DNA of 30,183 bases from a virus: the IMG/VR virus record IMGVR_UViG_3300020051_000064, positions 1-30,183 of that record; one strand, written 5' to 3'. Shown piece by piece: positions 1 through 28,928 of this stretch. Under the pieces are notes generated by a model, which was given only the letters and a program-made list of their open reading frames with translations, was not told the origin of the DNA and made no database searches. The translations under genes and the position numbers were made by a program. Position 1 is the first letter of the stretch. Each line of letters opens with the position of its first letter.

Positions 1-633
1 CGTATTAACTACCTCCTCCTGATACCCTAGCGCTGCCATGACTTTTGGTGTGTGTGGGTTCTGCTTCTGCCAGTAACAGTACTTATTCTGCGCTGCCGTG
101 TAGTCCGTTGCACTTCGACTACCCACATTCTCTAGATAATAATCTAAGTTGCTACTGACTAACTGCACCACTTTATCTAGTTCATCTAAGTCCGTGATAA
201 AACCAGCAGCGACCATGTTGCTACTAAAAATATTCCTTGCCCACTCAGGCAACTCTCTTTCTTTCGACCAGCTGAACGGTGTTACTTGGTCTTCGAACTT
301 CAAGAGCATTTCGTGACTTTCATCTATAGGACTGAAGTCATGGAATGCACCTGTTACTTTCTTAGGCCCCGCGATAAGGTCAAAACCAAAAACCGGTGCA
401 CCGTCGTTTGTGTGCGGGAACACGGTAAGATGCATCATATAGAGCTTCTTAGTATCCCTAGCATCTACAACATCAAGATGCGCCCTTCTAAACTTATCCG
501 ATCGCCATAAGAAGTTTTGCCACGGATACCGATGCCCTTCGTCGTAGGTCTCGAACCCGTCAAACTTCGACACCAGAATATCTTTTGCTTGCTCTAACTT
601 AGTGAATATTGTGCTTGGCTGCGACTTTGTCAT
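1..633 (-). CDS. pcyX: Ferredoxin-dependent bilin reductase, PcyX-like (3' end cut by window edge)
   Basis: This enzyme would reduce biliverdin IXalpha to a phycobilin with electrons from ferredoxin. My translation from ATG 633 is open for 211 codons to the window edge, so roughly 15-25 residues are missing. An in-frame TAA lies four codons upstream, which fixes the start. It aligns from memory with PcyA throughout: FRRAHLD at 48-54, MMHLTVFP at 66-73, PVFGFDLIAGP at 80-90, DFSP at 99-102 and LPEWARNIFS at 128-137. His68 and Asp85 match PcyA His88 and Asp105. Asp54 replaces PcyA Glu76, the substitution described for the phage PcyX clade, whose members make phycoerythrobilin. The gene overlaps the heme oxygenase gene by 35 nt and has no clear ribosome binding site, so translation is probably coupled. 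Family is near certain; the PcyX subclass and its product are inference. Confidence 0.9.
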   Translation of the reverse strand, partial: MTKSQPSTIFTKLEQAKDILVSKFDGFETYDEGHRYPWQNFLWRSDKFRRAHLDVVDARDTKKLYMMHLTVFPHTNDGAPVFGFDLIAGPKKVTGAFHDFSPIDESHEMLLKFEDQVTPFSWSKERELPEWARNIFSSNMVAAGFITDLDELDKVVQLVSSNLDYYLENVGSRSATDYTAAQNKYCYWQKQNPHTPKVMAALGYQEEVVNT

Positions 634-1141
634 ATAGGCTAATTACAAACTCAAATGCGTGAATGGCTTCTTGTTTTGTTTTTTCACTGTCGGTCAGAGA
701 AGCTCTAATTTTTTTAATGAGATCCTCTCTATCAGTAAAATCGTAACGCCTACATTTTCCTGGTAACTTGTTCTTTAGAATCTGACCGCCGAAAAGGTCA
801 CCCATGTGATGAACGTAAAGATGGGCTAAAACCCCTTCATTATCCTGTTTCCATATGTGGTCGCAGTAGTCATCAATAAAAGGCTCGTAAGCACTTGTGC
901 CTAACCCGTTATCACTTATTAACTCAACAAGGTCTTCAAGCATAAGTTGGTAGCGGGACACCCCAGCGAGTTCTGCTAACAACCCCTCTTTTCTCGCTTT
1001 GCTCTCAAGATCCCCATAAACTATGAGTAAGCTTGCCAACAGATCCGCATAGACCTCTGCGGCTATCCCACCCGTTATCATCGCTTGGGCTAACGGGTGA
1101 TGTTCGGCTCTATCGTGTATTGGTTTTATCGCTTCTCGCAT
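599..1141 (-). CDS. ho: Heme oxygenase (biliverdin-forming)
   Basis: The protein has 180 residues and would cleave heme to biliverdin IXalpha, iron and CO in the host cytoplasm, supplying the bilin reductase encoded just downstream. The N-terminal IHDRAE places His9 where the proximal heme ligand of HO-1-type enzymes lies (KEVHTQAE in human HO-1). The distal-helix signature is intact: AHLYVHHMGDLFGGQ at 106-120, with Gly114, Asp115, Gly118 and Gly119 matching the human Gly139/Asp140/Gly143 region. An in-frame TAG four codons upstream makes ATG 1141 the earliest start. At 180 residues it is shorter than typical HO (about 210-240) but lacks no core motif. It begins 18 nt after the Cys-rich gene, with only a weak ribosome binding site. 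PqqC/TenA-type folds share the helical bundle but not the GDLxGGQ motif. Phage heme oxygenases are known from cyanophages and from contigs carrying pcyX. Confidence 0.9.
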   Translation of the reverse strand: MREAIKPIHDRAEHHPLAQAMITGGIAAEVYADLLASLLIVYGDLESKARKEGLLAELAGVSRYQLMLEDLVELISDNGLGTSAYEPFIDDYCDHIWKQDNEGVLAHLYVHHMGDLFGGQILKNKLPGKCRRYDFTDREDLIKKIRASLTDSEKTKQEAIHAFEFVISLYDKVAAKHNIH

Positions 1142-1159: not shown

Positions 1160-1396
1160 CTACCATTTACCTAAAGGACAAGACACCGCTCCGCCCATAC
1201 GGATTTTAAATGGCATAAAGCATCCACATTCCCTGCAAACTTTAATCTTCTCGTTTAACGAAGGGCACTCCGAGCAAATTTCTTTTCTTTTTACTACAAG
1301 GGACGTTTGTGTTTCTTCACCGGCTAACTTTATATCTGAACTCTCATCCCAACTTTTACTCACTTCCATATCCTGCCCCGAATTAGCTGACCTCAC
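1160..1396 (-). CDS. Small Cys-rich (zinc-ribbon-like) protein
   Basis: The protein has 78 residues with a polar N-terminal half and a Cys-rich C-terminal half. Cysteines are at 41, 44, 54, 57, 59 and 73, arranged CxxC, then CxxCGC, then CPLGKW at the end. This looks like a zinc ribbon. Similar small proteins ending in a CP.GKW motif occur, from memory, in marine T4-like phages next to fibre genes, with no known function. Its start overlaps the stop of the upstream gene (TAATG), and an internal Met10 is an alternative start. It sits directly before the heme oxygenase gene, so it belongs to the same transcript. A metal-binding role is likely; DNA binding or redox function cannot be decided from sequence. 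Confidence 0.75.
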   Translation of the reverse strand: MRSANSGQDMEVSKSWDESSDIKLAGEETQTSLVVKRKEICSECPSLNEKIKVCRECGCFMPFKIRMGGAVSCPLGKW

Positions 1397-1734
1397 TAGA
1401 TTATTTCCGCAAGCGGCACTTCAGTAACGCCGTCTAAATCTCGTTCTACTATGCGCGTTTTTAAGACCCATCGACCCTCTATTAGTGATGGAGAGTCATC
1501 AAGTAGTATAGTTTGAGTGCCGAAGTCGAAATCATAAGTAATATCATCATAAAACACCTCGACAATAGAGAAGTTAGAACTTTCCCCCTCTTCTGTTAAA
1601 TCATAAAGTAGCGGAAGGTGAGTCTTCTGATCAAACTTAGTTGAAGGATTCTCTTCTTTAAGATTTTCTATACTGTAGGGAAACTGAATTACTACACCTC
1701 CCTTAATTTTCGCAAAACCTAAACTATCAGACAT
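1396..1734 (-). CDS. Hypothetical fibre-associated protein
   Basis: The protein has 112 residues, is acidic, and has no membrane segment. Its N-terminus (GGVVIQFPYSIENLKEENPS, residues 12-31) resembles the VVQYPYS-L--DNP-- start shared by many small proteins encoded after tail-fibre genes in marine phages; this is recognised from memory. The remainder is beta-rich with many Asp and Glu residues and ends in a possible strand pair (GRWVLKTRIVERDL). It lies between the glycine-rich fibre protein and the Cys-rich protein with almost no spacing. A fibre accessory or chaperone role is plausible from position only. Confidence 0.65.
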   Translation of the reverse strand: MSDSLGFAKIKGGVVIQFPYSIENLKEENPSTKFDQKTHLPLLYDLTEEGESSNFSIVEVFYDDITYDFDFGTQTILLDDSPSLIEGRWVLKTRIVERDLDGVTEVPLAEII

Positions 1735-1750: not shown

Positions 1751-2704
1751 TTAAGGAATCGGAGTGATTATGACGTAGCCAGTTGCTGTTCCTGGTTGTC
1801 CACCCCTCTGAGAGCCATTTGTACCAACGTCAGCCCATGATGATATCCGTACTGGCCCGCTGGAACGGCGATACGAAGTGCCGCCGCCGCCGCCAACCGC
1901 GGGGCCGTTACCGCCAGCTACGCCTCCGTAGTACCCGCCAGCGCCGGCTGGACAACTCCCGCCACCGCTACCAAACCCACCAGGGCTGTTACCGCAGCCC
2001 GTCGTGGTGCCGCCACGCCCACCCTCTACAAAACAATAAGCGCGTTGGGGCTGATTACTAAGACAGTTGTATGAGCGAATAATATGTACACCCGTATAAA
2101 AAGAGGCGCCGCCGTCGTAGACACCATCTAAACCCGTACAGTCAGCGGAACTCCCCCTCTGGGACGTAGCAGGCCAACTGGTGGGGCCACCATCTTGGTT
2201 CGACATTGCAACGCTATAACCACCACCACCGCCACCAGCTACAATAAGCGCATCGACGTTTGTATAGTTGTCTCCGCTGTTACAGATAGCGACGGCCGAC
2301 ATACCCCCACCAGAGTAGTTACCGGTGCCAGGGAGCCCTGCTAAGGCGACTAAACGAGCAGGCTGTTCAACAATTAAAGTACCTGAGATCATTGCGCCAT
2401 AACCGTGGCTTGTTCCTGATCCTTCTGCGCCGCCGATAGCGACCGAATATGATCCTTCAAAAATATCAAAATAGTGATACCCATTAGAGTAAACCCAGTT
2501 GGCCTCCGGCGGCATGCTCCAACTGCCAAGGCCAGTATAAGCCACTACTGGCGGCGGTTCGCTGCGGGTAGAAAGGGGTATAACACTCGTATTCACGTTT
2601 GCTTTTATATTTAAACTACTACTCCAAGCAACACCTCCTCCTGACGAAGAAGAGAACCCATACCCCTTTGCACTACCTACTGCGCGCGTATTCTGTATCG
2701 GCAT
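1751..2704 (-). CDS. Glycine-rich tail-fibre tip / putative receptor-binding protein
   Basis: The protein has 317 residues and is unusually rich in Gly and Ser. Glycine runs such as AGGGGGGYS, GGRGGTTTGCGNSPGGFGSG and AVGGGGGTSY fill residues 150-290, following a beta-rich middle. Glycine-rich segments of this type form polyglycine-helix tips or adhesin domains in several phage fibres and bind host receptors. A ribosome binding site (AAAGGA) precedes the ATG. The gene directly follows the large fibre gene, which is the usual place for a detachable adhesin. The function is inferred from composition and position; no catalytic motif is visible. The DNA is correspondingly GGN-rich and yields spurious plus-strand reading frames. 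Confidence 0.7.
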   Translation of the reverse strand: MPIQNTRAVGSAKGYGFSSSSGGGVAWSSSLNIKANVNTSVIPLSTRSEPPPVVAYTGLGSWSMPPEANWVYSNGYHYFDIFEGSYSVAIGGAEGSGTSHGYGAMISGTLIVEQPARLVALAGLPGTGNYSGGGMSAVAICNSGDNYTNVDALIVAGGGGGGYSVAMSNQDGGPTSWPATSQRGSSADCTGLDGVYDGGASFYTGVHIIRSYNCLSNQPQRAYCFVEGGRGGTTTGCGNSPGGFGSGGGSCPAGAGGYYGGVAGGNGPAVGGGGGTSYRRSSGPVRISSWADVGTNGSQRGGQPGTATGYVIITPIP

Positions 2705-2719
2705 AGAAAAATCCTTTAA

Positions 2720-5476
2720 TTACGCGAATTGCGTTTGGGAAGCTAAAACAGTGTATGTCCCAGACCCAGTTTTAATTACTACATAAGAATAGATATCTAT
2801 CGACGAGGCATTCCCTTCGGTTGGTGCCTCGCCGCCCTGCCATTTAGGAGTCACACCAGCGCCATCTATCTGCACCGAGGTGTTGTAGTAAGCCGTACCA
2901 CCACAAGTATTCACGAAGACAACTGTTATGGTTTCACCAACGTCCATCAAACTGTTTAAAGTAGTTGACGAATCCCCGCGTAAATTAATCGTAAAATTAC
3001 CTGCCGCGTTAGAGGTGTAATAGATTATTTGTTGTGGCAGCGCGTCGAAATTGATAGTGCCGTTTGCAGCAGTCGCTGAAACTAAAACACTTTCCTTTAT
3101 ATCGCCATTAAGTAATGCGGAGCTAAAAGTTTTGTTAGACAACGCTTGTACACTAGCTAATGTGACTAGCTCAATATCGCCCGATCCTAATAAGGAACCG
3201 CTATTGATAGTTTTTATATCGGTGCCCGAGACAAGCGTATCCTGCTTGAGCGCTAAGCCAGTAGATAGGCTAGACGCCGCGGTGGCTTGTCCCGCGTCTA
3301 TGTAGGTCTTAACTGCGTACTCAGTTGGCACTGCGGTATTACTATTGCCATTGAGTAAAGGATCTGAAGAGAATTCATTAATAGTCTCGCCAAGCTGCGC
3401 GCCAATTGACCCCAGCCTCAATGAGGTCAGGCCGGCAAGATCGAACGCGCTCGCATTAAGAGTTGCACGGCCGGTGGCTTGGTCAATACGGAAGTACTCG
3501 CCGACACGGAAATTTCCGTTCTGGTCTGTAGATACGTAATAAACTCGTCCTGGAAATACTTCATCAACCTCGTTCCCTTGTGCAGGGGCTTGAGTTGGTT
3601 CTCCTGGATAATTTGTAGTAGCGATGCCTCCAGTTCCTATGTTCAAGAAGTCATGGCCTGTCAATCTCACTTGCGAATACAAAGATCGCATAGTGATGCC
3701 GGTCCCGTCTGGAGAACCATTTACTTTCTCTTGGGCTAAATAAATGGCAATTTGGCTCGATGTATCTACATAAGTTCCTGCCGAGCTCTGGATAACGTAC
3801 GTAATTGAGTCGCCGGCGATTTGAATACTTTGACCAGGAATCGGTTCTGCGGACAAATTGTCAGCTACAATAATAAAACCTTTTTGATCTTCTAGGGCGG
3901 CAGAACCTACTGTGCCTGCGCCGCCGCTAGTAAATGTCAGCGTATTGCCTGACAAGAAGGTTCCAGTCGCGCCAGAAACATAAACTTTATCTGCTGATAT
4001 CTGAACATTTGTTACAGTCGCTGTACCTCCATCGGAGCTTGTGACTGTGTCCCCAACGTTTATCGCGCCGCCGCCGTAGATAAAATTAAGTTGCTGTCCG
4101 TGTATTTGACCGGTTTGTGATGTTTCGTTGGCATCAAAGCCACGAGATGTTGCACCCCACGTACCGTAGCTATTATTACCGTTGAGGGATCGGATAAAAC
4201 CTCCCCCAGAAGCCGCGTACCCCATATAGCAATAGTATGTAAAACAAGAAACAATCTCTGCTTTACCACCGTCTTTTGTCCAAAAACCTACACCGTTATC
4301 ACTGATAATTGTGTAACCGTGAAACAACATACTTTTTGCGCCGGCGCCATGAACCGACCCATCAACTAAAGCGCCAATTGCACCAGAACAAATAGCGGCG
4401 CATTCCAAGACATAAGGAGATTTCGTAGTAGCGGGCGAATTAACATTAAAACCGACAACAACGCCGGCTGGTGTTGATGTTGTTATATCTTCAGGGGTGC
4501 TACCTGGAACCCAACCGGTCATGCCTTTAAAAGTCATCTTGTTCAAGATTGAGCCATTACTCATCTGGAACATGGTCGAAGTGTTCGTTAAAAGCGTGGG
4601 GTGTACGTTTACCGTTCGCTGGCTATCGCCAACTATGGCGACATCTGGTGGTACAACAATTGGGCATATTTCTGTATACGTACCCGCCGATACATTAATA
4701 GTAGCTGGGTTTCCGGCTGCAGCGGCAGCTGCACAGGCGGCTTTAATTGTGGCAAATGCACCAGAGATTGTTTCGCCATTATTAGTGTCTGAACCTGCGG
4801 GGGTCACATAATAAACATCGGGGGAATAGAGAGAACCACTAAACAAGAATGATTCCCAGAAAACACCGTCAGTGCTCGGCGTATTTCCTGTTGTGTTTTG
4901 TACCGCGATATAAAGACTGCTGTTGTAATTCACCACATCATTAAGTTGGTATGCTACAGCGGCGTCGTAAATACCCTCCCATTGAACACTTTCTGTTAAA
5001 CGAGCCCACGAGTTACCGACAGCGCCAGGATTTGTGTTGGTGTTGTCGACGTTAGCCACATACACAGTGGCGCCGTATGATACTGAGTCACCTACTTTAT
5101 ATGCAGCGGCCGCGTCCCATTCACTTCTAAAATTCCAACCGCCAACAAACAATGTCCAATATTCAGTGTCTGTTGGGATATTCCCTGTTGATTGCACAAG
5201 ATTTGAATACATATACAAGTTGCTGCCGTAACGAACGACGCTACCGTACCCGTATTCAGTTGCCACATCCCAAAGACCGGAGAAAGCAACGCCATTAGTC
5301 ATCCGGCCCCAGAAAGTTGCGGCCGAGGTCAGCGTACCTGTGGTCCTTGCGGTGCTTATGTAGACATAAGAATTGCCTTTGAAAGAAACAACATCATTGA
5401 ACTGATATTCAGTAGAGACACTCCATTCGCCTTTGAATTGGAATCTTATTTTTCCAAGGTCAAGAATCTGAGCCAT
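2720..5476 (-). CDS. Large tail fibre / tailspike with carbohydrate-binding-like repeats and beta-helix
   Basis: The protein has 918 residues. Residues 16-59, 67-110, 117-160 and 166-210 are four divergent repeats of about 50 residues, each with a W-------Y--(N/G)D-V-Y-----Y pattern like chitin-binding (CBM5/12-type) modules. From about residue 220, DVYYVTPAGSDTNNG followed by FATIKAACAAA and INVSAGTYTE is the start of a right-handed parallel beta-helix of the pectate-lyase/tailspike type. Further on, segments such as VYYVSTDQNGNFRVGEYFRI are common in marine phage fibres, and YAVKTYID lies near the start of the C-terminal fifth. It starts at TAATG, overlapping the stop of the 84-residue gene. 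It should bind host-surface glycan; no enzymatic residues can be assigned. The last 130 residues look like a fibre-trimerisation or tip module. Confidence 0.85.
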   Translation of the reverse strand: MAQILDLGKIRFQFKGEWSVSTEYQFNDVVSFKGNSYVYISTARTTGTLTSAATFWGRMTNGVAFSGLWDVATEYGYGSVVRYGSNLYMYSNLVQSTGNIPTDTEYWTLFVGGWNFRSEWDAAAAYKVGDSVSYGATVYVANVDNTNTNPGAVGNSWARLTESVQWEGIYDAAVAYQLNDVVNYNSSLYIAVQNTTGNTPSTDGVFWESFLFSGSLYSPDVYYVTPAGSDTNNGETISGAFATIKAACAAAAAAGNPATINVSAGTYTEICPIVVPPDVAIVGDSQRTVNVHPTLLTNTSTMFQMSNGSILNKMTFKGMTGWVPGSTPEDITTSTPAGVVVGFNVNSPATTKSPYVLECAAICSGAIGALVDGSVHGAGAKSMLFHGYTIISDNGVGFWTKDGGKAEIVSCFTYYCYMGYAASGGGFIRSLNGNNSYGTWGATSRGFDANETSQTGQIHGQQLNFIYGGGAINVGDTVTSSDGGTATVTNVQISADKVYVSGATGTFLSGNTLTFTSGGAGTVGSAALEDQKGFIIVADNLSAEPIPGQSIQIAGDSITYVIQSSAGTYVDTSSQIAIYLAQEKVNGSPDGTGITMRSLYSQVRLTGHDFLNIGTGGIATTNYPGEPTQAPAQGNEVDEVFPGRVYYVSTDQNGNFRVGEYFRIDQATGRATLNASAFDLAGLTSLRLGSIGAQLGETINEFSSDPLLNGNSNTAVPTEYAVKTYIDAGQATAASSLSTGLALKQDTLVSGTDIKTINSGSLLGSGDIELVTLASVQALSNKTFSSALLNGDIKESVLVSATAANGTINFDALPQQIIYYTSNAAGNFTINLRGDSSTTLNSLMDVGETITVVFVNTCGGTAYYNTSVQIDGAGVTPKWQGGEAPTEGNASSIDIYSYVVIKTGSGTYTVLASQTQFA

Positions 5477-5730
5477 TATTTGTACTCCATCAAAAGGCGA
5501 CCTGTGCCGCTAACTGTGTAAGTAATTGTGTCCGACGACCAAAAGTAAATAAGATAGTCGTTTGCATACGTAGCATATTCCGAAGGAATTTCTACTGGAG
5601 TGCCGTCGACACCATTGTTAAAATCAAAAAATAACTGGCCATTAGCAGCGTCTAAGCGAAAACCATAGAACGATTTGTCAGCATATTCGTGGCCTAAAGT
5701 TACATTAACTCCGCTATATATACCGGCCAT
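5476..5730 (-). CDS. Small virion-associated protein (unknown)
   Basis: The protein has 84 residues, is beta-rich and aromatic-rich (many Tyr and Phe), and has no membrane segment or Cys. I do not recognise a family. It is tightly packed between two structural genes with stop-start overlaps at both ends (TAATG at 5730 and 5476), so it is probably translated in register with the fibre genes. A small baseplate or fibre-attachment protein is a reasonable guess from context. Confidence 0.65.
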   Translation of the reverse strand: MAGIYSGVNVTLGHEYADKSFYGFRLDAANGQLFFDFNNGVDGTPVEIPSEYATYANDYLIYFWSSDTITYTVSGTGRLLMEYK

Positions 5731-6053
5731 TATTTAACTCCAGTAAGTAGAGACGCTACTACATCAAACGCATCAATAAGAGTAGAAAAGGCAACCAACT
5801 GGTCACCTGCCACAAGGACAATTCGTCCCTTGATTACCTCTGCGTTTTCTCCGCTGGCGATCCTTAACTGACGAGCTATAAAGGTATCTACGCCTCCGCG
5901 CCTTAAGACTAAGGACAATGGAGCCACGGAACCAAAAACATTTGCTGCGTTGCAGCCTATAAGTAACGCTTTAGAATCTGCCGCCACTGTGTAAATTGTG
6001 ACTTCGCTCGTTCCAATATTTCTTGCTGTCGCATTAAGAAAGCTAGTAGCCAT
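5730..6053 (-). CDS. Small virion-associated protein (unknown)
   Basis: The protein has 107 residues, begins MATSFLNATARNIGTSE and is rich in beta-strand-forming and small residues, without catalytic motifs. Proteins with this opening, often next to fibre genes, are seen in many marine phages and carry no assigned function; this is family resemblance from memory. An AAAGGTGAAG ribosome binding site lies 9 nt or less upstream of the ATG. Its stop overlaps the next start by 1 nt. It is probably a small structural component of the tail tip. Confidence 0.65.
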   Translation of the reverse strand: MATSFLNATARNIGTSEVTIYTVAADSKALLIGCNAANVFGSVAPLSLVLRRGGVDTFIARQLRIASGENAEVIKGRIVLVAGDQLVAFSTLIDAFDVVASLLTGVK

Positions 6054-25161: not shown

Positions 25162-27279
25162 TTATCCTTTGGGGGTTAGAGATTTGTTGGTTTGTTGCAT
25201 CGCCGTTGTGGCAATTCTTGTAGCCGCCGAAGTTTCTTGGTTAGTTCGGCGTGTAGTATTAGTTAGATCCGCAAGCTCTCTTCTGAGATTGAGCTCCATT
25301 TCCTTCATGCGCATCTGACTCTCAAGCTCCATGACCTTAAGCTGCGGCGTAACGTCTGCCACATCTTGAGTTTTCGCCATGTTGATCGCAGCTTCTGACT
25401 GCAGCTTCTGCACTTCTGCTCGTAACTTCTCGATAGTGAGCTGAATCTGCTCCATCTCCATTTCGTGATGGATCTGCTGCATCTGCGCTTGTTCTTCACT
25501 AGGCGGTTCAACACCAGTAACAGTGCGAATTCGTTTAGCCAGTTCACCCTTACGCGCGAGGTGGCTGTACTCTACGATAGCGTCATCTGGAATCATCACG
25601 CCTGCGCTGCGCAAACTCAGAGCCTCAGCGAACTGAATCTCGTCGAAGCTGTCGCGGGCGGGGGCTGTAGCAATAACTACATCGTATTCACCGATAGTTA
25701 GGTCATTAACAATTCGCCCCTCGGGAGTCATTTCGTTAATAACTATCGGCTCACGCGGCTTAAGGGGATCATCTTCATTTGTAATCTGAACTATTCGCTG
25801 CTCGGTGTAGAACCGCTGTATCAGATTCAGAATCTTCTCTGCCAAGTGCTGACGAGTCTTGTTCAAGTTATCCAGTGGCACCTGAATCATTATCGCGCCA
25901 CGATTCTGCTTAGCTTGTATCGCAATACCTGACACTTCAGCTGAGTCAGTACCCAGCATAGAGTCATTAATACCCGATATGGCTTTTATGTTTGCCGCCG
26001 CTTTCTGACCGATACGATCTAGACCAGTAGGGATAGTGTTAGGCTGAATCTTTTGGGGTGCCGTGGTGCCACGGGCGTACTCAAGCACGAGGCCAGTTTC
26101 GGCGCCATGCTCCTCGAGATCATCTGGTGTCATACCTACCAGTGAGCCGCTCTCTACCATCCACCCGCTATTAGCAGTGGTGTTAACAATATGCAGCTCT
26201 TGCGAAGCGATCTTGTTAAGCTGTTCTTGTGGGGATAACAGGTTACGTACCATGCCGAACGGACGACCGCGACGGAAGTAAGCGAAGAATGGTACTAACG
26301 TGAAGTCATCGTATGGCGACCAGTCATCGTGCAGCACAACTTTGTCACAGGTCACTGTCCAACGTACCTGCTTTACCATCTTAGTAATTACAGACAACCC
26401 GTGCTCTTTCGCGAACGCTTTCACCTTCCGCTCGTTCCAATTTTCTGGCACGCGCCTCTGGTCGCCGGTTGTGGGGTCGACATAGAAGTCTGACCTAGTC
26501 AGCTTTCGGTGCTGTCGCTCAATTACCCGAAGCGCCCTGACGTTTCGGTACTCTTCCTCTCCAGGAATCTGTGCACCTAAAAAATCTTCTCGGGTATCTA
26601 TGTCGCCGTAGCGAGTCTCTTCGTACTCTACCGAGTCGCGGCCAAAACTGTTGCCGTTTTCTGCGATGAACTGCAGCTTGTCAGCTTTGTCTTTACCGTA
26701 GACCTCTTCAATCTCGTCAAGGGTCATCCATTTCGTTTCGAATATCTCGTTCCAAGTGCGCGCGTCATACTCTTTTGCGTCTGGATCTATCAGTATATCC
26801 AGAGGATCTTTCGCCGTTATCCGCACCTCACCTTCAGTGCTGTCACTGAAATCTATGCGAACGTCAAAATAACCACGGCCATCAAGGATCAATCCGTCAC
26901 TAAACACCTGCTGCTCTATCCAATCCATTTTGTTGTTGTCAGAGATCTGCATGAACAACTTAGTCAGTGTGTTCGCTATATCACCGTCGCCGCCTTTGCG
27001 GGGTTTAAACTTCACGTCTGCCCGCCGTGAGCTCTGCTCACCTAGCACCGTATTAACCGTAGGCAGGATCGTGTTAATTGTCAGAGCAGGACGTCCGGCC
27101 TGATCGAGAGCTGCAATGTCTTCAGCCGCCCACTGATCACCTCGGTAATATGAGTCGCACTTCTTAGCCATTTCAATGTAATCAAGGTGGCCATTATCAC
27201 GAGCACGTACATATCTGTCCCACTGGCCAGACGCAATCATGTGCTCTTTGTCTGCGGTCAATCGCTTTGTATTCTTCAT
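25162..27279 (-). CDS. Portal protein (P22-like)
   Basis: The protein has 705 residues. It forms the dodecameric ring at the unique head vertex through which DNA is packaged and ejected. The N-terminal ARDNGHLDYIEMAKKCDSYY, RGDQW, GRPALTINTILPTVNTVLGE and DGLILDGRGYFDVRIDF follow the P22-type portal family. A long coiled coil occupies about 595-675 (EMEMEQIQLTIEKLRAEVQK, MELESQMRMKEMELNLRREL), which would extend into the head like the P22 barrel. Its ATG comes 2 nt after the large terminase stop and it is followed 3 nt later by the scaffold gene, so packaging and head genes share one transcript. Confidence 0.9.
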   Translation of the reverse strand: MKNTKRLTADKEHMIASGQWDRYVRARDNGHLDYIEMAKKCDSYYRGDQWAAEDIAALDQAGRPALTINTILPTVNTVLGEQSSRRADVKFKPRKGGDGDIANTLTKLFMQISDNNKMDWIEQQVFSDGLILDGRGYFDVRIDFSDSTEGEVRITAKDPLDILIDPDAKEYDARTWNEIFETKWMTLDEIEEVYGKDKADKLQFIAENGNSFGRDSVEYEETRYGDIDTREDFLGAQIPGEEEYRNVRALRVIERQHRKLTRSDFYVDPTTGDQRRVPENWNERKVKAFAKEHGLSVITKMVKQVRWTVTCDKVVLHDDWSPYDDFTLVPFFAYFRRGRPFGMVRNLLSPQEQLNKIASQELHIVNTTANSGWMVESGSLVGMTPDDLEEHGAETGLVLEYARGTTAPQKIQPNTIPTGLDRIGQKAAANIKAISGINDSMLGTDSAEVSGIAIQAKQNRGAIMIQVPLDNLNKTRQHLAEKILNLIQRFYTEQRIVQITNEDDPLKPREPIVINEMTPEGRIVNDLTIGEYDVVIATAPARDSFDEIQFAEALSLRSAGVMIPDDAIVEYSHLARKGELAKRIRTVTGVEPPSEEQAQMQQIHHEMEMEQIQLTIEKLRAEVQKLQSEAAINMAKTQDVADVTPQLKVMELESQMRMKEMELNLRRELADLTNTTRRTNQETSAATRIATTAMQQTNKSLTPKG

Positions 27280-27281
27280 GG

Positions 27282-28928
27282 CTATGCACTCATCGCCGAT
27301 TTGTTTTTAGGACCACCCTTAACAATATGGGCGAGCTTGTCCCTCCAAGAGGGAGTGTGAACAGTAGGCGCGTGATAACTTGAAAATTCAGCCATCATCA
27401 ATCCAAGCCACGCGAGCGCGTCGACCTGATCGTCATGGACGCCGTTTGGGAATCTCAATAGTTCTGCCACCAGCGGGCCTGTAAACACAGCATCACGAGG
27501 CAGGAATACCATCCCCTGCTGCATACGGCCTTGGATGGCGCGGGCGCGGGCTTCTTTGTCTCTTCTACCCGTGCGTAGGTCTTTGATGTACATTTCATAC
27601 AACCCCCTTTCACGCACACGTTTCTCAAGGAACGGGCCAAGGGCCATCTCGATGTGACCCTTCTCGATACCGACAATTGACGGTTTCCACTCGACGTATA
27701 AATCCAAAATCTTCTCTACAATCTCGAACCCGTCAAACCGCCCACGGACAATGTCCATGACGTACAACTTGTCAGCCTCGTCGACGCCAATGACCATCCC
27801 AACCGAGTAGTCGTTCCTGTCGTTTTTACCGATGGCTAAATCCCATGCGGCGTAGTACTTCATGCGGTCTTCGTCGATATCCTCAGGGTCGTAGTACTTA
27901 ATCATGCTGCGAGTAAAGTAATCACCCTCGTCTGCCACAGGATTCTGTTGATACAACGCGGACCAATCTCGAGGGCCAACTGCTTTTCGTATACGGTTAA
28001 GTGACGCGGCGTCATACCGATCAAGGTGTAACGGCTCGCCCATCTTCCGGTACTTCTCGTCTTCCTCAGCGATGGCGGGATAGCGAACTACTTCCCAATC
28101 GTCGCCGCCTTCGGTCGCCATTTTTAGTAGGCGCCCCGCAAGATCGTCGTCATGCCAACGAGTGAGAATAACCAGTACCCCGCCGCCAGGAGCCAGACGG
28201 GTGTACGCCGTTGACGTATACCAATCCCAGTTAGCCTCTCTATTATTCTGAGACTCAGCGTCTTCTCGGTTTTTTACGGGGTCATCGATAACTAATATGT
28301 GTGCCCCTTTACCCGTGATACCGCCACCAACACCTGCAGCAACAAAGCCGCCGCCACCAGTGGTGAGCCACGCTTCAGCACTTTGAGAGTCAGGATCTAG
28401 ACGTGTTTTGAAGGCACTCTTGTAGGACGGCTCTCGCAGCAGGTTACGCACCTTTCTCGAGAAACCCATCGCCAGTGAGCCTGAGTATGAGCAGCTAATG
28501 AACTCGTGCTCAGGGTTACGTCCCAAGTGCCAAGCGGGGAACGCTACCGAGGCAAGTGTCGATTTCCCATGCCGAGGGGGCATGAACAACATTAACCGTG
28601 GCGACTTCTTATCAACCACGTCTTGTGAGAACTTCTCTAACCTTTGGCAAATGTCCTTGTGCACCCAGCCTGCTTGGTAATCTGGATTGAACCGCTCAAC
28701 GAAGGGCAGCATCCGTTTACGCGTGAGGATACGCATGGCCAACTCTTCGCGAGCCATTTCTTCAGAAGTTTTTGGTAGAGGGACATCAGTACTGGGGTCT
28801 TTCGGCGAAGGCAGGGAGTCCTGCCGGTCTGCTTGGCAGTACACACACCAGTTGTCCGCGCCCATAAGAGTAGACGGAACCGACTTCTTACACCGTTCGC
28901 ATGTGCTCTTGGGCGCTTCATCCGTCAT
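27282..28928 (-). CDS. terL: Terminase large subunit
   Basis: The protein has 548 residues and acts as the ATPase-nuclease that packages DNA. The Walker A motif is MPPRHGKS (116-123), Walker B is ILVIDD (211-216), and the coupling motif is LTRWH (255-259). The nuclease half holds Asp363 (AAWDLAIG), Glu422 (GIEKGH) and Asp499/Asp500 (HDDQVDALAWL). An unusual N-terminal extension carries four cysteines, C10-x2-C13 and C28-x2-C31, that look like a zinc ribbon ahead of the ATPase. The start overlaps the small terminase gene by 11 nt. The family is certain; the zinc ribbon is inferred from Cys spacing. Confidence 0.95.
   Translation of the reverse strand: MTDEAPKSTCERCKKSVPSTLMGADNWCVYCQADRQDSLPSPKDPSTDVPLPKTSEEMAREELAMRILTRKRMLPFVERFNPDYQAGWVHKDICQRLEKFSQDVVDKKSPRLMLFMPPRHGKSTLASVAFPAWHLGRNPEHEFISCSYSGSLAMGFSRKVRNLLREPSYKSAFKTRLDPDSQSAEAWLTTGGGGFVAAGVGGGITGKGAHILVIDDPVKNREDAESQNNREANWDWYTSTAYTRLAPGGGVLVILTRWHDDDLAGRLLKMATEGGDDWEVVRYPAIAEEDEKYRKMGEPLHLDRYDAASLNRIRKAVGPRDWSALYQQNPVADEGDYFTRSMIKYYDPEDIDEDRMKYYAAWDLAIGKNDRNDYSVGMVIGVDEADKLYVMDIVRGRFDGFEIVEKILDLYVEWKPSIVGIEKGHIEMALGPFLEKRVRERGLYEMYIKDLRTGRRDKEARARAIQGRMQQGMVFLPRDAVFTGPLVAELLRFPNGVHDDQVDALAWLGLMMAEFSSYHAPTVHTPSWRDKLAHIVKGGPKNKSAMSA

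Follow-up and report, generated by a model that had tools for sequence, protein, structure and literature searches.

A heme oxygenase and PcyX-like bilin reductase cassette among the virion genes of a podovirus-type, probably temperate phage

The gene pair at one end of the window (the whole stretch of DNA analyzed, a 30,183-base virus record in IMG/VR) is, with a probability of about 0.7 in our estimate, a late-block cargo cassette of a temperate, podovirus-type marine phage, in which a heme oxygenase (HO) would produce biliverdin and a PcyX-type ferredoxin-dependent bilin reductase (FDBR) would reduce it to phycoerythrobilin (PEB), a pink pigment, with host ferredoxin. The first explanations offered for pigment genes in phages turned on photosynthesis in cyanobacteria. 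HO yields biliverdin, Fe2+, and CO, and PcyX yields PEB using electrons from ferredoxin. The same products and electron source are described in PMC11480375. In the proposed route, HO would open host heme to give biliverdin IXa, Fe2+, and CO, and the reductase would draw four electrons from host ferredoxin to turn biliverdin into PEB. Both enzymes would be made together, late in infection, with biliverdin handed straight to the reductase; this joint late production is suggested by the overlap of the genes and by the gene order. From sequence we infer the product, late expression, host ferredoxin as the donor, and lysogeny.

A longer contig, G001 (IMGVR_UViG_3300022928_000025; 61,823 bases), holds the entire window at 100% identity and carries the complete FDBR gene. 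The features are as follows (window coordinates unless stated):

1–633, minus strand: PcyX-like FDBR, truncated at its 3′ end by the window boundary, with 211 of 221 aa present
L053:5566–6231, minus strand: full FDBR, 221 aa, in contig G001
599–1141, minus strand: HO, 180 aa, PF01126
599–633, minus strand: 35-nt overlap of the HO 3′ end and the FDBR 5′ end
1160–1396, minus strand: 78-aa protein with a Cys-rich C terminus, directly upstream of HO; phrog_13558, DUF6171-like under the Pfam cut-off
1396–1734, minus strand: 112-aa protein in the same gene run as the cassette, no assigned family
1751–2704, minus strand: 317-aa Gly-rich protein adjoining the fiber gene
2720–5476, minus strand: 918-aa tail fiber, phrog_9851 (3.7e-194), with weaker baseplate-wedge PHROG matches
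25162–27279, minus strand: P22-like portal of a podovirus-type head-tail module, PF16510 (1.1e-120)
27282–28928, minus strand: terminase large subunit, PF03237, phrog_38

Downstream of the cassette in G001, on the same strand, lie genes for proteins of 67, 155, 83, 573, and 933 aa. The 573-aa product matches an internal virion protein (phrog_511, 5.9e-132) and the 933-aa product a tail tip (PF09327, Phage_Tail_Tip). The cassette is inside the virion gene block, between fiber and internal-virion genes. The sequence-only reading had set the pair at the end of a structural operon, directly after the fiber genes, and neither point held. The operon appeared to end there because the window edge cuts it, with the internal-virion and tail-tip genes coming after in G001, and the two small genes at 1160–1396 and 1396–1734 intervene between fiber genes and pair. 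The tail fiber itself (2720–5476) has a match to a carbohydrate-binding module, CBM_5_12 (PF02839), at its N terminus, which suggests a polysaccharide receptor. Similar, variable copies of the tail-tip gene stand at both ends of G001 (98–2899 and 59167–61821). A second assembly, G002, joins these two end copies as a 904-aa version, which would make the map circular or permuted.

Across the first 16 kb of G001, promoter-like sites were fewer than chance would give (12, against 19.0 in shuffles), and the minus strand immediately ahead of HO had none, in keeping with the earlier impression that no promoter is visible. One 9-of-12 promoter match was seen at the FDBR start. The same scan gave 23 terminator-like sites against 13.5 expected, none of them between FDBR and the next same-strand gene; neither kind of site offered a signal that could be used. 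Judged by gene order, late co-expression with the virion genes is likely. One contig running from the fiber gene through FDBR (L020) comes from dataset 3300016749, which may be a metatranscriptome; it plays no part in this expectation.

The HO matched PF01126 at 51.8 bits against a cut-off of 23 (E 1.2e-13). Residues H9, D115, G118, and G119 were invariant among 21 phage and metagenome-assembled genome (MAG) HOs and could be aligned with HO-2; the last three lie in the motif GDLFGGQ. We take H9 to be the proximal heme-ligand His and GD-x-x-GG to be the distal-helix motif. An AlphaFold2 model had a pLDDT of 95.5, and the best 50 Foldseek matches listed were heme oxygenases (E 1.2e-6 to 1.5e-5; TM over the model 0.72–0.82). 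By family, active-site residues, and predicted fold, the product of 599–1141 belongs to the heme oxygenases.

The FDBR matched PF05996 at 73.8 bits against a cut-off of 31 (E 2.1e-20), and also phrog_7278. The families named for the two proteins by the sequence-only reading were thus borne out by profile search, both scores being above the curated cut-offs, and the anticipated route from heme through biliverdin to a phycobilin is supported by profiles, active-site residues, and AlphaFold models that agree with one another. Among PDB proteins, the window FDBR matched PcyX 5owg best (1.8e-51) and then PcyA (5.6e-14), and a profile of 23 phage FDBRs scored PcyX 5owg at 295 bits and PcyA at 86 at best. 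In the alignment, D54, H68, and D85 correspond to PcyA E76, H88, and D105, so that Asp54 takes the place of the Glu76 of PcyA. D54 and D85 align with 5owg chain residues 63 and 94; we take chain residue 94 to be PcyX Asp86, and an offset of 8 gives PcyX numbering 55 and 86. An Asp at the D55 place was present in 20 of the 23 aligned phage FDBRs, with Asn in L026 and Glu in L046 and in the second copy of L032. Asp55 is described in PMC11480375 as specific to PcyX, and its absence is given there as the reason why the phage FDBR CB_2 yields phycocyanobilin (PCB). With 5owg as the nearest solved protein and Asp where PcyA has Glu76, the kinship with marine-phage PcyX that had been suggested stands. 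A separate arrangement was seen in L032 (6004–7349), where one HO gene is followed by two tandem FDBR genes, the first with Asp and the second with a PcyA-like Glu at the Asp55 place; these could yield two bilins from one cassette.

To place the enzyme among its relatives, an FDBR tree of 75 rows was built from five references and the 70 FDBRs that remained of 130 after thinning at 92% identity; it held no PebA, PebB, HY2, or alphaproteobacterial PcyA of the ORS278 kind, and the program flagged the reference branches as long. The window FDBR fell in a podovirus-type subclade (an inner group of 5 at 100/99 and a group of 8 at 97/88), itself inside a 51-row viral clade (100/94) without a characterized enzyme. 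PcyX 5owg and the FDBR of phage Mosig were outside this clade and inside a larger 71-row clade (99/89), while three PcyA rows (cyanobacterial or cyanophage) and PebS were outside both. PebS was the most distant row, a close kinship with it was not found, and none of the 25 phage records that matched at E 1e-5 carried a PebS annotation. The sequence-only reading had looked to such a tree for the subtype; it did set the enzyme on the side of 5owg and Mosig, apart from PcyA and PebS, but support for the deep split was only 83 in a quick tree without PebS. Alphaproteobacterial PcyA and PcyX are described as one lineage in PMC10151467. An FDBR family search of 385 Alphaproteobacteria gave two genomes above the cut-off and a third below it. 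One of the two was a Rhodobacteraceae bin already in the tree; the other had a very distant FDBR, which remained a very distant row when added to the quick tree, with no gain in resolution.

The FDBR model (AlphaFold2, pLDDT 91.0) matched PcyA, PcyX, PebA, PebB, PebS, phytochromobilin synthase, and related red chlorophyll catabolite reductases by Foldseek at E ≤ 0.001. PcyA chains ranked above PcyX by E-value, so the fold does not choose between these two. A PcyA-like FDBR that yields phycocyanobilin for a host phytochrome would suit this fold, which fits PcyA at least as well as PcyX, and there is a precedent in the FDBR of the freshwater CB_2 phage, shown to be PcyA in PMC11480375; the lack of alphaproteobacterial PcyA in our tree also leaves it some room. 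We nonetheless consider it unlikely, given that the sequence scores favor PcyX and that D54 stands at the Glu76 place, the activity of CB_2 being ascribed in the same source to the absence of Asp55. The FDBR looks PcyX-type, a call that we base on Asp54 and the sequence scores and not on the tree.

We next considered how firmly the two genes are joined. The 35-nt overlap that had been read from the sequence was exact, at 599–633. The same 35-nt overlap occurred at 21 of 128 FDBR loci (16 of L002–L046 and five that repeat contigs already counted), each belonging to the window's own lineage with FDBRs 76–100% identical, seven of which were compared base by base. Because the same 35 nt recur across the loci of this lineage, the overlap is not a matter of chance, and translational coupling is probable. 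Farther relatives had different overlaps, such as 26 nt in L019 and 14 nt in Mosig. Against L008, L010, L013, L016, and L017, the FDBR gave dN of 0.13–0.18 with synonymous sites saturated; saturation made dS impossible to compute for most pairs, and hence no dN/dS ratio is given for those.

A scan of viral contigs gave at least 600 candidate stretches, at least 559 of them encoding an FDBR relative, and 80 were kept. An HO gene was present at 128 of 133 FDBR loci, many of which are the same contig twice. Four of the five loci lacking HO begin at the FDBR gene or within 67 bases of it; the fifth, L163, shows 1.5 kb upstream, and the longer L080 does have HO there. By spacing, 111 of 128 loci had overlapping genes, 13 had 257–1487 bases between the genes, and four had no HO. 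Starting from HO instead, FDBR lay downstream in 76 of 80 loci, overlapping in 67; one of the four exceptions stops at HO, and the remaining three were long enough to show an FDBR (L240, L261, and L271), though both pairing sets were seeded from paired loci and singletons may be under-counted in them. Across the viral contigs that we examined, the two genes nearly always accompany each other. The three contigs with HO and no downstream FDBR are rare phage contigs that would be useful for a test of an iron-only function. Beyond viral contigs, a genome scan with the FDBR alignment gave three relatives among 41 candidate stretches, and a plasmid search for FDBR gave nothing. MAG contigs with HO and FDBR, which may be bacterial or phage, were assigned to Neomarinimicrobiota, Rhodobacteraceae, and Rickettsiales (L078, L079, L080, and G006). 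G006 has three FDBR copies, and in those Rhodobacteraceae-bin FDBRs that were read, Lys stands at the PcyX Asp55 place.

This pairing bears on what the cassette is for. PMC11480375 calls the co-occurrence of HO and FDBR enigmatic and discusses pigment, phytochrome, and iron. In Pfam scans at E 0.001 of 65 of the 81 ORFs of at least 60 aa in the 61.8-kb contig G001, we found no photosystem, phytochrome, phycobiliprotein, or bilin lyase family, in line with the sequence-only reading that no photosynthesis gene is in view, and no ferredoxin, ferrochelatase, aminotransferase (AlaS), or ALA synthase (valaS). With no pigment acceptor in the ORFs scanned and the cassette among virion genes, HO might instead serve to free Fe2+ from host heme in the late phase of infection, supplying host enzymes, Fe(II)/2-oxoglutarate (2OG) dioxygenases, or virion metal sites, while FDBR would only pull biliverdin off HO and clear it. 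Fe(II)/2OG oxygenase genes do lie upstream of HO or between HO and FDBR in relatives such as L007, L008, L010, and Mosig, and a role in iron supply is among those discussed in PMC11480375. Such genes are common in any case, being present in 76 of 153 cyanophages (PMC10452541), one occupies the same slot in L192, a relative that lacks the cassette, and none was matched at the cassette of the window's own phage. Moreover, HO without FDBR is rare, at three of 80 loci with room in a set seeded with pairs. Iron supply is therefore a possible reading that we regard as doubtful. The near-constant FDBR beside HO favors either a bilin or an FDBR that acts as a product sink, and argues somewhat against iron alone. 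Because HO so rarely occurs without FDBR in the loci examined, the selected output is most likely the reduced bilin and not iron alone.

The likely late placement, together with the absence of a dedicated pigment user in the phage ORFs scanned, would also suit heme detoxification or CO/bilin signaling in the dying cell, with the pair clearing heme released from host cytochromes. For this, HO alone should be enough and a four-electron reductase would be a costly addition, which makes such a role improbable next to PEB synthesis by an HO and PcyX-type pair.

To ask whether the position of the cassette carries meaning, relatives were collected through the 573-aa protein, giving 17 loci. Fifteen of these divided into three with the pair and 12 without it, eight of the 12 showing at least 2.9 kb upstream; in the remaining two, L007 and L009, the pair was present. 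In L183, L189, and L191, the slot was filled by a protein of 174–176 aa, flanked by fiber accessory genes and a gene like that for the 155-aa protein; the slot protein had no Pfam match where this was tested (L183). In L192, a 2OG oxygenase stood at the slot. These comparisons show the cassette to occupy an optional cargo slot. In L007, a 3.4-kb stretch that starts 85 bases into FDBR shares 99.3% identity with the window's phage, yet its HO is only 42–44% identical and a 2OG-Fe(II) oxygenase gene stands between HO and FDBR; the stretch L007:3428–5176 thus shows recombination within the cassette.

Other genes were also seen at or within cassettes of relatives. By Pfam, 2OG-Fe(II) oxygenase genes immediately precede HO or separate it from FDBR in L007, L008, and L010, and similar assignments were made by profile, weak match, or inspection of the sequence for L088, L106, and L080. 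Between HO and FDBR, L046 has an alpha/beta hydrolase (5340–5918), and nitrilase-like carbon-nitrogen hydrolases occur in L078 (3916–4971, by Pfam) and L080 (3991–4854, by inspection only). No 2OG oxygenase was matched at the cassette of the window's own phage.

The sequence-only reading had proposed host phytochrome signaling as one use of the pigment, and had also raised the idea that the bilin binds a part of the virion. The cassette is indeed among tail genes here, and near neck and fiber genes in myovirus-type loci and in Mosig. Since the slot holds other genes in relatives, position alone means little, and no bilin-binding family was found in the ORFs scanned; we give this idea very little credence. 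Only slightly less improbable is a broader version, in which a temperate podophage ties heme breakdown to virion making, with late iron or bilin entering or maturing tail proteins. If that were true, function, beyond the mere convenience of a cargo slot, would explain why the cassette recurs beside fiber and neck genes in different phage types, often in the company of Fe(II)/2OG oxygenases.

The phage itself was typed from its other genes. Podovirus-type families were found for a P22_portal, terminase, capsid, SU10-type adaptor, podophage GP4 fiber, and internal virion protein. No sheath or tape-measure family was present in the Pfam matches or among the best 25 of 33 PHROG families across 45 proteins. 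Pointing the other way, the fiber genes have further matches to ‘central tail fiber J’ and baseplate-wedge PHROGs. From this gene set we infer a podovirus-type virion. G001 further encodes a DNA polymerase, a primase-like protein, a helicase, and a C5 methylase. It also has a CsrA-like gene at 47784–47981 (L055:15784–15981); PF02599 matched one of 45 proteins, likely this one.

A tyrosine integrase lies on the minus strand of G001 at 57144–58190 (PF00589, 5.4e-31), near a small HTH regulator whose HTH_3 match was weak and just under the cut-off (E 1.8e-4). Comparison of integrase flanks among relatives gave a conserved stretch of 20 bases upstream of the integrase (G001 58319–58338), which on the minus strand equals the 3′ end of a tRNA-Ser and is a candidate attP. 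A variant of this stretch occurs upstream of the integrase in four contigs from two lineages (L064/L066 and L067/L068). The exact 20-mer was found in two of 398 Pseudomonadota genomes and its reversed control in none. In one of the two, G086, a complete tRNA-Ser(CGA) gene ends with it; the other, G173, was set aside as host evidence, since the site there retains no more than a tRNA remnant. G001 itself gave no tRNA with ARAGORN, nor did Rfam detect a piece of one near the integrase. In G002, the HO, FDBR, and integrase genes share one 29.9-kb contig (L178), so the link between cassette and integrase does not rest on G001 alone. The contigs of L013/L066 and of L017/L068 represent two further lineages with both cassette and integrase; the integrase of L012 is partial. 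No close prophage was found in the 398 Pseudomonadota genomes, where the portal matched in four, with 42% identity at best. Taken together, the phage is probably temperate. Among cultured phages, those infecting Aeromonas, Pseudomonas, and Acidovorax are among the top matches for terminase and portal, as are those of Pseudanabaena for terminase; as to the host, these offer no more than a hint.

While the hemO-pcyX pair is known from marine phages, its placement in a podovirus-type, probably temperate phage is unusual, and in the open-access literature searched, mostly as titles and excerpts, we recognized no paper with the cassette in a podovirus or a temperate phage. A PcyX-like pair with a fixed overlap in such a lineage would widen the phage range of the cassette and add urgency to the question of what it does apart from photosynthesis. 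For finding the host and testing that purpose, the cassette-free relatives and the tRNA-Ser attachment site provide handles.

Several known systems provide context. Ledermann et al. (2016) reportedly described marine-myophage contigs with a hemO-pcyX cassette. Cassettes of the hemO-pcyA/X-valaS kind have been reported on contigs grouped with myovirus pelagiphages by a neck-protein tree (Wegner et al. 2024, Nat Commun, PMC11480375); unlike these, the window's phage has no valaS or ferrochelatase family in the ORFs scanned. In Mosig (Pelagibacter phage EXVC030M), a myovirus (PMC7892664), HO likewise lies directly upstream of and overlaps a PcyX-like FDBR near fiber and neck genes, with 2OG oxygenases as neighbors of the cassette. 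Mosig differs in its 14-nt overlap and in its proteins, the FDBR being 47% and the HO 27% identical to those of the window, whereas the window's phage is podovirus-type and apparently temperate, with the cassette between fiber and internal-virion genes. PcyX_EBK42635 (PDB 5owg), the best PDB sequence match, is an FDBR with Asp at both places, though it does not fall in the 51-row viral clade that holds the window enzyme. The Bradyrhizobium ORS278 hemO-pcyA-alaS island and the CB_2 phage genes (PMC11480375) also combine HO and FDBR outside cyanobacteria; their FDBRs are PcyA (PCB) and are set apart by that description, and the window's phage has no alaS or phytochrome in the ORFs scanned. The cyanophage P-SSM2 carries ho1 and pebS, which take heme to PEB with one reductase (PMC13197396). 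This is likewise a phage-borne route from heme to PEB, but PebS is a distant FDBR and cyanophages infect photosynthetic hosts.
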